Shown here: in pieces, positions 28,701 through 43,700 of the stretch
Position numbering within the stretch: the stretch's first letter is position 1
Layout: every line of letters begins with the position of its first letter
From: Sycon ciliatum
Taxonomy: Eukaryota > Porifera > Calcarea > Leucosolenida > Sycettidae
NCBI RefSeq assembly: GCF_964019385.1
Contig: NC_088651.1
Span: 228,091 to 292,090 of the forward strand
DNA length: 64,000 nt
Direction: 5' to 3'
Program-made: the position numbers and the translations under genes
The notes under the pieces: model-generated
The model's database searches: none
Seen by the model: the letters and a program-made list of their open reading frames with translations, nothing else
Told to the model about the DNA's origin: nothing

Positions 28701-31700
28701 TCTATACAGGTCTGAATGTGTGTTCATATACATGTATGGTCTGAGATCACTGGTCTCTAAAGACAGGTGATCACTGGATGCAGGTCTGAATGTGTATCGA
28801 TGTGTGGTCTTGGGTCTATAGTTTCAGAACACTGTTCTCTGAAGACAGGTGATCACTGGATGCAGGCTGTGCCCTAGTCATAATAAACCAAGTGAAGTTT
28901 GCACATCTGCGTTACCACTGGCTGTATGTTGAGAAACACAACCAGCTTGGGAAGTTTCGTTTGTGCCAGGCCCTGACCATGCCTGACTATACATGTGCCA
29001 GTTATAACAAACAATATACCGTTCAGCGGCTTTCACTCATCTAAGAGCTTGTTGATTGCTGTCCGAAGCCAAATCAGAATTCAAAAACAGAATGAATCCT
29101 AGGAAAATTCAAAGAAAACCAGGGAATACCAATAAACTCAATAGGAAATTTCGAACTTTGAAAACTTCAATAGAAAACGCATGAAATCAAACTTTGTAAA
29201 AAGTGAACTTGCGACCAGTAGGTGAATCCAAAAGAAAAAAAAGATCAAGAAAAGTATCCAAGATGTCCGTGTTTCTGGACGATTTTTTAGTGAAGTTCAA
29301 TTCTATGGAAATTTGAGTATTTCGTAGAAATCAAGAATCAGAGGGAGAAACCCTTGAATGCCCATACCATAATGAACCATGGGTGGTTCACTGTCTGTTG
29401 GGTTGAAATTTCTCAACCCAATGCAAACTAGGACAGTGGAAATGGGAGCAAATGTGCATACGGGCACCTGTGTGTGTGTGCGTGCGTGAGAGAGTGTGTG
29501 TGTGTGTGTGAGAGAGAGAGATTGTGTGAGAGAGAGAGTGTGTGTGTGAGAGAGAGAGAGAGAGAGAGAGAGAGAGAGAGTGTGTGTGAGAGAGAGAGAG
29601 AGAGAGAGAGAGAGAGCGAGAGAGAGAGAGAGAGAGAGAGAGAGAGAGAGAGAGAGAGAGAGAGAGAGAGAGAGAGAGAGAGAGAGAGAGAGAGCGAGAG
29701 AGAGAGAGTGTGTGTGTGAGAGAGAGAGAGAGAGACAAAGAGAGAGAGTGAGAAAGAGACCCAAAGACAGACAGATGGGGTGAGCGATCAATCAACGGAC
29801 AGATCGATGCTGTGAGAAGCTATTTCTACCGCCGATGCCTAGACATTAGTTGAGCGGCTCATTCTACTATAGGACTGCGTGATTCCCATCATCTTACCAC
29901 CATCATCTTTATCTACAGCCGACGGCGCATTCTCCTTGGTACTAGCGACTGTACGGAGGACGTTAGTGTGCGGCCTGACATTCGGCCCATAGCCTGTTGC
30001 TGTTGCTCTTGTGCTAGTAATCATGGTGTGTGACCCAGGACAATCAGGATTGGCCGTGACAACAGGGTTGCGTTGCGATAACGGTCCCCTCGCTGTTGCT
30101 GCTGCTGCTGCTGCAGCTTGCGTATTCTCTGTGGGAAGCAACTCGGAAAGAGTTGGACTGTGAGCCATGGCAGCTGTATCAGCCATGTGACGGGTCTCAG
30201 CTCTAGGAATTCTTTCACTCTCTGGAGGAGGGCAGGGTAGAGTGTGACTGTCAGCCATGTTAGCAGCAGTGTTGTGACTGGCCCCTGTTCTAGGAGTTCT
30301 CTCGCTCTCGTCCACCACGCTGTGGTCACTACCGGCGGCGGCGGTGGTGGTGTGGAGTTGCACGCTGAACACTCGTGCGGACGCTGCCACAAAGTGCCCA
30401 GTACTGCGAGTATTCGTATAGTTGCTGCCGCCGCTGTTGATGCTGTTGTTGCTGCTGCTGCTGCTGCTGCTGCTGCCGCTGATGTTCTGTGTGGCGCTTG
30501 CCGTAGCGGGATAGCCAGCCGTTGCCGCTGCGACGTCTCCGTCCGTATTCGGCCAATCACGTTCGGTCGCCACGGTGGTGAAGGGTTCTCCAGTGGCTGT
30601 AGCGTGACTGCTACTACAGCTGCTGGCGTCGTCGCTGCCATTGTTAGCGAGGTACTTGGCGTAGCGGTAGCGCGGTATACGGCGCCAGTGGGGTAGGCCC
30701 GGTGTGTTAGCCGGCAGGAGACTGGTTTTCGGAGTAACCTGGAATGGACGCCGAGCGATCTTGCGGGCCGATTCTGAGCTGTGGTGGTGCGACTGCGGCT
30801 GCTGCTGTCCTGTGTGTTCACGTGCGTTGGTGGTTTGCTCTGGTCCGCTGGTGGTGGCGGTGTTGTTGTTGTTGTTGTTGTTGTTGTGGGGTGTATCGTT
30901 GCTGGTGGTGATAGGGCTGGTTTGGGTGGTGGTCGTGCTCTCCGCTGTCGACTGGACCGATGTTCCGGCAACTGCCTGCTTTGACGCGATGGCGAGTGGC
31001 TTGCTGGTAGGTACAGCGCTGTTGCTGTTGCTGGTGGTGGTGATGGTGCTGCTGGTGGTGTTGCTGTTGCTGTTGCTGTTGGTTGTGGTGCTGCTGCTGG
31101 CGATGGTAGTGATGGTGGTGTTGCTGGTACCAGTAATGTCAGTAGGATGGTGCATGTGGTCTGTTGTTACACATGGCTCCAGTTGCTCCGCTTGCCAGGG
31201 AGTGCTGTTGGTGGTTGTGCTGATACCAGTGTCCGTGTCAGCAGGATGGTGCACGTGGTGTGTTGTTACACAGGGCTCCAGTCGCTGCGCTTGCCAGGGA
31301 GTGCTACAAGTGTCGCCGCATGGTGGTGGTACGATAGCGTTTGCACTGTGTCGTGTCGACTCCTGACTCTGCCGACGACGAAGACAACCACCTTGCATGG
31401 TAGGCTCTGCCACTGCTTCTGCTGCTGAACCTTCATCATTGCTGTTGTTTTGTGTCATGACGTCGGTGTTATGTAGCGGCGCGGGCCCACCATTGGAAGC
31501 AGACAGCGCACTCTGTGACGGATCACTTGTCACTGGTGTGCTCTCTGAGCGGTTAGCAGTCACCACTGGACTGGGCTGGCGGCGAATAGGGTGTGCAAGG
31601 TCAATACTGTCCCCACTGGAAGCATGTATTAGTAATGGGTTTTCCTGAGTTTTCCGGAGCACAACTTTGCTACCAGTCCTGGTGACGATAGCAGCTGATC

Positions 31701-40700: not shown

Positions 40701-43700
40701 GCGGTGCGCTGTTGCTGTGTGCGTTCGGAGTGACGCGGGCACGCCGCATTTCAGTCGAGAATGTATCACCGTCGTCAGGATAGCGCGGGGTAGCAACATG
40801 GCTAACACCACCACCACCGTCGTGATCGCTATTGGCCGCAGAACCACCACTGCTCCGCTGACGCATGGCCACCATCTCACCACCACCACTACCGTGGTGT
40901 TGTTGGTGGTGGTGGTGATTCGTAGCTGGGTGAGGAGCATGGATATCACAGTGCTGCTGTTGGTGGTGCTGTTGGGTAGACGGTGTGCTGTGATAGCCTG
41001 GATGAGTGGCATGCAAAGGGCGGTCACCATCTTCGGTCGTGCAGTACGGATCAACAAGATGGTCGGTAGCAGCATTGTCTGCACGCTCGACCATATCCGC
41101 GTGGAAGCAGGCAGCTTGTCTACTGTCTCTTAGCGCAGTCTGTGCTGCTCGGGTGTGCTCGTTTGTAACACTCTGAGCGGATACATACTCGGATACATAC
41201 TGCCGGTCCCTCCCCGTTGGTCTTCCTCGCGTTGGCTCGCTCCGCACGGCAGTGGAGTTTGACCGGCCGACTTTCTCCACCTGTATGAGACGCGAGCTGC
41301 GCTGGAACCTAGCCAATTGCTGCATTATCATTGCGGAGCCAGGCATTGGGTTGCCGTGGCAATGTGGACTCCATGACAACAATGGTGTACCACGAGCAGT
41401 TGTCGGGTCGTGTTGGCGTGCCAGTGTCACCATGGACACGGCATGCGCGGCCACCTGACCGGCTGGGTGTGAGGTGCCGCCGCCTGTGTCTCAGTATGGT
41501 CTTGCAATCGCTACAGATACACGGCGCGTGACTGGTGAATACCCAGCTGAAACACACACGATTGATGCGTACTTCTTACCGCGCTGCACGAGTGTTTACG
41601 CCAGTCACCAATGCCTCGGTGGTCCTGCTATGGCTAGTGTGTCCTGGCGATACCACGGGTGTCTGGAACGATTCGGATGCCACAAATGTCGAAGTGTGCC
41701 GGCGATACCACAGGTGTCTTGAAGTGTGATGGCGATGCAGCAGGTGTCTGGAACGATTGGCAAGCTCTCTGCTGCCTCCCTTCTACCAATCCACGGCTGT
41801 CAAAACACTACTGTTTACTATCTGAATGTGAACTTGCTTTTGTATCTCTGTGCCCCGTACCCTACTGCTGGGCAGAGCCTGCGAGCGCACGTGCGAGCGT
41901 GTCGCCACGGGTGTCTTGAACGACTGGGCTCCTCTCTGCTGCCTCTTGTACCTGTAAACAGCTGTCAAACACTACACCACTGTAGCATCTGGCTGCCAGC
42001 TCGTTTCTGTATCTCTCTGCCCCGCACCCTGGTGCTGGGTAGAGCGTGCGAGCGCGCGATTGCGTGTCACCCTTGTCCAGTGCTACCACCGAGTGACGTC
42101 GACAATGATCCTGGCGGCGATGCTCGCAGCTAGGCTGGCTGTTGCACAATCACTCTACTCTCCCGGCGATGCTCGATGATAGGCTGGCTGTTGCACAATC
42201 GCTCTGCTCTCTGCTTGCTCCTCTCTGTCACTCTCCCTGTACCTTCCTGTACTACCACTACTGGCAGCCTAAGCTCTGCACCCCTACCCTGGGGTTGTGC
42301 GGGCACGCACGTGCTCGCGTGTCACCCTCGTCCAGTGCTGGTAGTCTTGGCTAGCACCGTACAGTGCTGGTAGTCTTGGCTAGCACCGAGTAACACAACA
42401 GTACTGGTGGCAGTGATGATGGAGGATAGGCTGGCTGTTGGGCAATCACTCTGCTCCCTCTCCTTGCTCCAGTCTCAGTCTCCCTCTCTCACTACCACTA
42501 CGTGACGTCAACAATGGTCCTGGTAGTGATGGAGGATAGGCTGGCTGTTGGGCAATCACTCTGCTCCCTCTCCTTACTCCAGTCTCAGTCTCCCTCTCTC
42601 ACTACCACTACGTGACGTCAACAATGGTCCTGGTAGTGATGGAGGATAGGCTGGCTGTTGGGCAATCACTCTGCTCCCTCTCCTTACTCCAGTCTCAGTC
42701 TCCCTCTCTCACTACCACTACGTGACGTCAACAATGGTCCTGGCAGTGATGATGGAGGATAGGCTGGCTGTTGGGCAATCACTCTGCTCCTGCTCCTTGC
42801 TCCAGTCTCAATCTCCCTCTCTCACTACCACTACGTGACGTCACCAATGGTCCTGGTAGTGATGGAGGATAGGCCGGCTGTTGGGAAATCACTCTGCTCT
42901 CTCTCCTTGCTCCTGTCTCAGTCTCCCTCTCTCTCACTACCACTACGTGACGTCAACAATGGTCCTGGCAATGCTGGAAGATAGGCTGGCTGTTGGGCAA
43001 TCAAACTGCTCTCTTTTTGCTCCAATCTCAATCTCCTTGTTCTACCACTACTTGCAGTCTAAACTCTGCAGTACTCTACGACTACAACTGCATTGCTGAC
43101 AAGTAGCTGAAAAGCAAACACTTCCAATGCTAGAAAACACTACTTGAGAGTCCCTTAGGACCTTGTCTCCTGCCCCCAAACAGAAAACTTTCTTCTAGTT
43201 GCCCCTATCCAGGTGAAGTGCTCAGAGGCCTATGCTCTCTGTCTCACTGTACCCTGTTGACTTGACCCCCTAGTGACTGTGCTAGACGCTGGCTCACAAC
43301 TGGTCGAAGCAGTCCTAGGACTCAGCTGGTCATGCCCAGTGCGCTGTGACGTGCGAACTCTGTGCGTAGGGTGTGTGAGATGTGAGGTGCGTATGAGTTT
43401 CGTGTGAGTTTCGTGTGAGTTTTGTTTAAAGTTCGTGTGAATTTCGCTCGAGTTTCGTGTGAGTTTTTGTGCGAGGTGTGTATGTGACAGCAGTGCTACT
43501 GTCACTGTTTATGCTGCTGCCGTCACTGCTGCTGTGGGTATGAGTGTGTGAATAACGCCGTCGTGTCACCTGCCAGACCAGGTTACCCCGAGTGGTATTT
43601 ATGGTGTGAATTTATTACTCACGCTGCCCCGGCTTTGTACTCTGTAGTGAGTACAGTCATGTAGATTATGGTGTTAATTTACATGAACATGGATCAGTGA

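Follow-up and report, generated by a model that had tools for sequence, protein, structure and literature searches.

A giant open reading frame nested antisense within an intron of FDXR in the sponge Sycon ciliatum: a candidate gene for a very large disordered protein

The 64,000-nucleotide stretch of Sycon ciliatum DNA analysed here (the window; assembly GCF_964019385.1, contig NC_088651.1, positions 228,091 to 292,090 of the forward strand) holds FDXR, a mitochondrial gene whose 14 exons span 7779-47015 of the plus strand, with exon 4 placed by a weak match alone. Antisense to this gene, inside its 18.6-kb intron 13, lies a giant open reading frame (ORF; 29839..41433, minus strand). The exons that border the intron were located by protein-to-window matching: exon 13 (28034..28249, plus strand) and exon 14, the last coding exon (46875..47015, plus strand). 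The ORF falls wholly between these two exons of one host gene, and the exon positions agree with the nested antisense arrangement described in a first-pass annotation of this DNA. Judged from its letters, the ORF has about an even chance of being the coding sequence, held in one giant exon, of a real protein-coding gene, for which expression is predicted.

The full stop-free stretch runs on the minus strand from 41490 to 29842 (29842..41490) and comprises 3,883 codons. From its first ATG, at 41433, it leaves 3,864 codons closed by a TAG at 29839-29841, exactly as first annotated. This frame carries no stop in its 3,883 codons; the other two minus-strand frames hold 105 and 153, and the plus-strand frames across 29842-41490 hold 114, 121 and 153. 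In DNA simulated with Markov models of order 1–5 (100 simulations each), the same frame collects a mean of 85.5–106.7 stops and never fewer than 55, and the longest same-strand open run reaches 505 codons. In 20 sampled 10-kb stretches of the genome (200,000 bases, with 14,649 of them masked at three loci), no unmasked open stretch exceeds 1,549 codons. Trinucleotide repeats had been proposed to help the frame stay open, but they are not the cause of its openness, since the largely repeat-poor region 33421-36399 is also stop-free: it has 0 stops in 993 codons, where the five other frames have 25–33 each and simulations (500 for each of three orders) never fewer than 5. The ORF is kept open beyond chance, and this openness is the one firm indication of coding. 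Since the first ~100 codons have a weak frame-specific composition, the actual start may be a later in-frame ATG (41346, 41331, 41325 or 41094).

By position-specific base composition, the ORF frame is the preferred one in 28 of the 39 segments of 300 bases that lie within the open stretch and in 1 of the 14 beyond it; this score is mostly circular, having been trained on the ORF. The two segments outside the training set, 41490 and 41190, both favour the ORF frame, the former weakly. The frame also contains in-frame internal repeats with units of 402, 168 and 48 bp (31492..32941, minus strand; repeat search and self-comparison), including three copies of one protein segment. In an ungapped self-comparison from which trinucleotide-rich, shorter than 45-nt and 100%-identical pairs had been dropped beforehand, 19 repeat pairs qualified and three overlapping ones were removed; in each of the 16 pairs retained, the offset is a multiple of three, although most of these pairs sit in one repeat region and hence do not represent 16 independent events. 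Glutamine (Q) tracts of six or more residues mix CAG and CAA codons in nine of 11 cases.

The predicted protein has a mass of 414.6 kDa and an isoelectric point of 7.4, and is devoid of membrane-like segments, its largest 19-residue mean hydropathy being 1.08. The open stretch is composed of 11.3% serine (S), 10.8% alanine (A), 10.2% threonine (T), 9.4% Q, 7.0% glycine (G) and 6.6% histidine (H), and the hydropathy and charge of the whole protein place it on the disordered side of the Uversky line. By composition, most of the predicted product is of low complexity and disordered, with an abundance of Q, H, S, T and A. The dense, protein-like blocks singled out at the outset are real as sequence, and the least repetitive and most protein-like of them corresponds to residues 2271-2690 of the open stretch (33421..34680, minus strand; genome search and structure models), a charged, tryptophan- and tyrosine-bearing block. 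A second block, assessed by genome search (residues 1698-2100 of the open stretch; 35191..36399, minus strand), carries a basic, nuclear-signal-like sequence, PEKKRTRR, at about residue 1739 counted from the ATG. A weaker basic match lies near residue 2337 of the protein. Structure prediction, as first proposed, was run on the dense block with single-sequence AlphaFold, and two models gave low-confidence helices. A Foldseek comparison of AlphaFold models with the PDB returned 26 matches, the best with an E-value of 2.6, and was rejected as giving no fold match.

The absence of a recognisable family, also noted earlier, was borne out by every type of search made. Searched in full at E≤1, the ORF matches 0 Pfam families, and the profile searches proposed for the dense blocks, run on eight ORF blocks, yielded two matches in one block (E 0.049 and 0.072), rejected as lying below the family cut-offs. 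Seven matches to PDB sequences at E≤1 (best 0.0037) fall on the Q-rich residues 1506-1609 or on residues 684-771 and were rejected as compositional, as were two matches from a second such search (best E 0.1). In the protein database, ORF residues 1700-2700 gave nothing at E≤1 among 2,136 scored candidates of 2,129-6,774 aa, and the dense block nothing at E≤10 among 7,989 scored candidates of 721-2,294 aa, these searches being limited by word, size and candidate number, so that a model in pieces of less than 721 aa or an omitted record would be missed. No relative appeared in viral contigs (412 pattern matches, none confirmed) or in prokaryote genomes, two collections that may omit records very near the genome of the window. 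No homolog outside the lineage was found in Pfam, in PDB sequences, in the two size-limited protein searches, among viral contigs or among prokaryote genomes. A literature search turned up no title on this gene, which does not show its absence from print.

How much these missing homologs say about age depends on the sampling of calcareous sponges, for which FDXR offers a gauge. The S. ciliatum NCBI protein P0001 matches the FDXR of the window in 13 stretches, 10 at 100% identity and three at 95–97%, the latter being stretches whose ends run beyond the identical exon letters; its 89% identity to the joined FDXR query reflects gaps and junctions of that query. The match agrees with an origin of the window from S. 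ciliatum, a calcareous sponge, or from a source that cannot be told apart from it by these sequences. Among the 120 of 7,819 FDXR matches listed, the next best are ~54% identical, and the only calcarean is S. ciliatum itself. As no other calcarean is named among them, the missing homologs of the ORF say little about its age.

Within the 538-Mb genome of S. ciliatum, the ORF is single-copy as far as tested, that is, in two blocks of 420 and 403 residues (823 together). The sole match of block 33421-34680 is itself (15 candidates scored), and block 35191-36399 matches itself and four weak, stop-containing sequences at E 0.08–0.78 (23 candidates scored). A 1-kb DNA query covering 34000-35000 likewise returned its own locus plus two short matches, each of which lies in trinucleotide repeat.

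Candidate signals flank the ORF on both sides. Upstream lies a tandem array (42417..43036, no strand assigned; repeat search) of a 110-bp unit in 5.6 copies with 92% matches, in which TGACGTCA occurs at 42503, 42613, 42723, 42836 and 42948; as these five stand in tandem copies, they do not count as independent occurrences, and the window has four more TGACGTCA elsewhere. The array is a candidate promoter, and the surrounding DNA (41491-43100) matches itself alone in a genome search with common words excluded. Downstream, about 1.4 kb past the stop, a motif scan identified an AATAAA at 28418..28423 (minus strand), a putative polyadenylation signal and the only A[AT]TAAA on the minus strand between 31000 and 25000.

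Several observations weigh against a translated gene of this kind. Among the Q tracts, two of 11 are single-codon runs, as are the N8, S8 and G6 tracts, as slippage would give. By the Uversky index, 48 of 153 windows of 50 residues fall on the folded side, and the helix models are of low confidence, with a mean predicted local distance difference test score of 50.8 and 66.3. Synonymous codon use correlates with that of FDXR at 0.28 in the ORF frame and at 0.28–0.36 in the antisense frames, a comparison that is not diagnostic because the fourfold sites of FDXR are nearly even. In position-specific composition, another minus-strand frame scores higher in 11 of 39 segments, including all five that start at 34590-33390, in the dense block. 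No TATA-type match occurs in 41400-44500. In a frame-agnostic comparison of the internal repeats, the ORF frame has a ratio of nonsynonymous to synonymous differences (pN/pS) of 0.77 (Fisher 0.012), and the control frames, in which 37–70 stop-bearing codons were skipped, give 0.98, 0.83, 0.71, 0.80 and 0.81, the 0.71 belonging to an antisense frame (Fisher 0.0013). Among 12 hand-picked repeat pairs, the nonsynonymous-to-synonymous rate ratio (dN/dS) is 0.22–0.44 in nine and 0.93–1.14 in three, one of these three being misaligned; purifying selection was not relied on from the nine, as the frame-agnostic control frames did not confirm it. Repeat differences by codon position number 37, 34 and 49, a count that includes one misaligned pair and is not significant (p 0.21). 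Finally, no matching protein, even an identical one, was found among the size-limited candidates (2,136 and 7,989), and the searched database does contain an S. ciliatum NCBI protein, that of FDXR. An identical protein of such size would be expected among the scored candidates, and its absence points to a gene that lacks annotation in that database.

The open stretch may instead be one very large coding exon within a gene whose other exons, mostly on the 5′ side, lie upstream at 41.5–46 kb—a large-exon rather than an intronless gene—as the first-pass annotation had entertained; the gene may be just slightly larger, for example by a non-coding 5′ exon. This is a tentative reading, which nevertheless deserves attention: the first ~100 codons carry a weak coding-like signal, a minus-strand TTTCAG ends at ~41547, and a donor-like GAGTAG|GTGAGTCT stands at 43916. 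Nevertheless, crude splice scoring gave no minus-strand acceptor above 4.5 in 28.3–47 kb, and no specific exon is supported. A frame recently born or dying, which would be open but untranslated or no longer constrained, appears unlikely: it would fit the lack of a database protein in the size-limited searches, the repeat pN/pS that is not distinct from control frames and the lack of a Pfam family, but an unconstrained 11.6-kb frame of such composition would collect stops, and there are none.

The retrocopy of a multi-exon gene, another origin proposed at first, would account for a frame that is uninterrupted by stops and readable without introns. It is nevertheless very unlikely, given that neither of the two blocks has a convincing second locus in the genome and that 24-47.5 kb shows no flanking terminal or target-site repeats among those listed (the lists cover 20 of the 41 direct families and 25 of the 54 inverted pairs). 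The same lists hold no flanking long repeats that would mark the ORF as coding sequence from a giant mobile element or an endogenous virus. Although a Ty3/gypsy element is present in the same window (59104-63063), the ORF has no Pfam family, its two blocks have no second copy, and none of the 412 viral-contig pattern matches was confirmed as a relative, which makes such an origin extremely improbable.

The remainder of the window contains other features. In FDXR intron 1, a transfer RNA (tRNA) with a CUA, amber-reading anticodon is predicted at 9076-9148 (plus strand; tRNA-Pyl by ARAGORN, 37.9 bits with the Rfam tRNA model), which is possibly a tRNA-derived repeat or pseudogene. The intron preceding exon 12 contains a tandem array (26275-27335) of a 53-bp unit in 20 copies with 96% matches, and palindromic repeat units around AGTAGTAAAATACCGGTATTTTACTACT occur at 22195-22285 and 24705-24893. 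The Ty3/gypsy element is an unbroken gag-pol frame on the plus strand, with protease, reverse transcriptase, RNase H and integrase families recognised by Pfam. On the minus strand, frames at 53000-59000 resemble WD40-type exons of what we take, from their translations, to be RPTOR, and exons at 4000-6750 presumably belong to a casein-kinase-1-type kinase, again by their translations.

Compared with known systems, the ORF resembles taxonomically restricted (orphan) genes in having no homolog in the searches made, and it is unusually long for such a gene. Mastermind-like and Mediator-type proteins are Q/H-rich, disordered transcriptional co-regulators, with which the ORF shares long Q/H tracts, low complexity and a basic nuclear-signal-like stretch. 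This likeness is compositional only, as the two have no Pfam domain in common, and membership in a Mastermind- or Mediator-like family is not supported, Pfam at E≤1 giving no diagnostic domain in the ORF. Genes nested in host introns are known, for example in the LRRTM/alpha-catenin case (PMC3933685). Like those genes, the S. ciliatum ORF is a complete coding frame within an intron of an unrelated gene; unlike them, it has no recognisable family. Its length is 11.6 kb.

If the ORF is indeed a protein-coding gene with its coding sequence in one giant exon, its own promoter near 41.6-43 kb would drive transcription, and the product would be a disordered protein of up to 3,864 residues, grown partly through in-frame repeat duplication and bearing one helical island. 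Such a protein might act as a nuclear scaffold or co-regulator, its Q/H-rich tracts making many weak contacts around the helical island. That the ORF is translated, that its product is a scaffold located in the nucleus and that it has this promoter are all steps that we infer, and the disordered, likely nuclear scaffold, as the best functional guess, stands for that step alone somewhat short of an even chance. Of the three origins first suggested, a lineage-specific disordered regulator fits best, although "lineage-specific" and "regulator" are terms that go beyond what has been demonstrated. The most elaborate version, a previously unannotated, calcarean-restricted ~415-kDa nuclear scaffold encoded in one 11.6-kb exon, with a private promoter made of a locus-specific array of cyclic AMP-response-element-like motifs and antisense transcription coupled to FDXR, is unlikely as a whole.

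S. ciliatum is a sponge used for studies of early animal evolution. If translated, the ORF would be a coding gene of very large size, contained in a single exon, that the protein records of this species apparently lack, and would demonstrate that very large low-complexity proteins can escape both annotation and homology searches. The gene would also offer a clean test case of how far giant disordered proteins are lineage-specific inventions.

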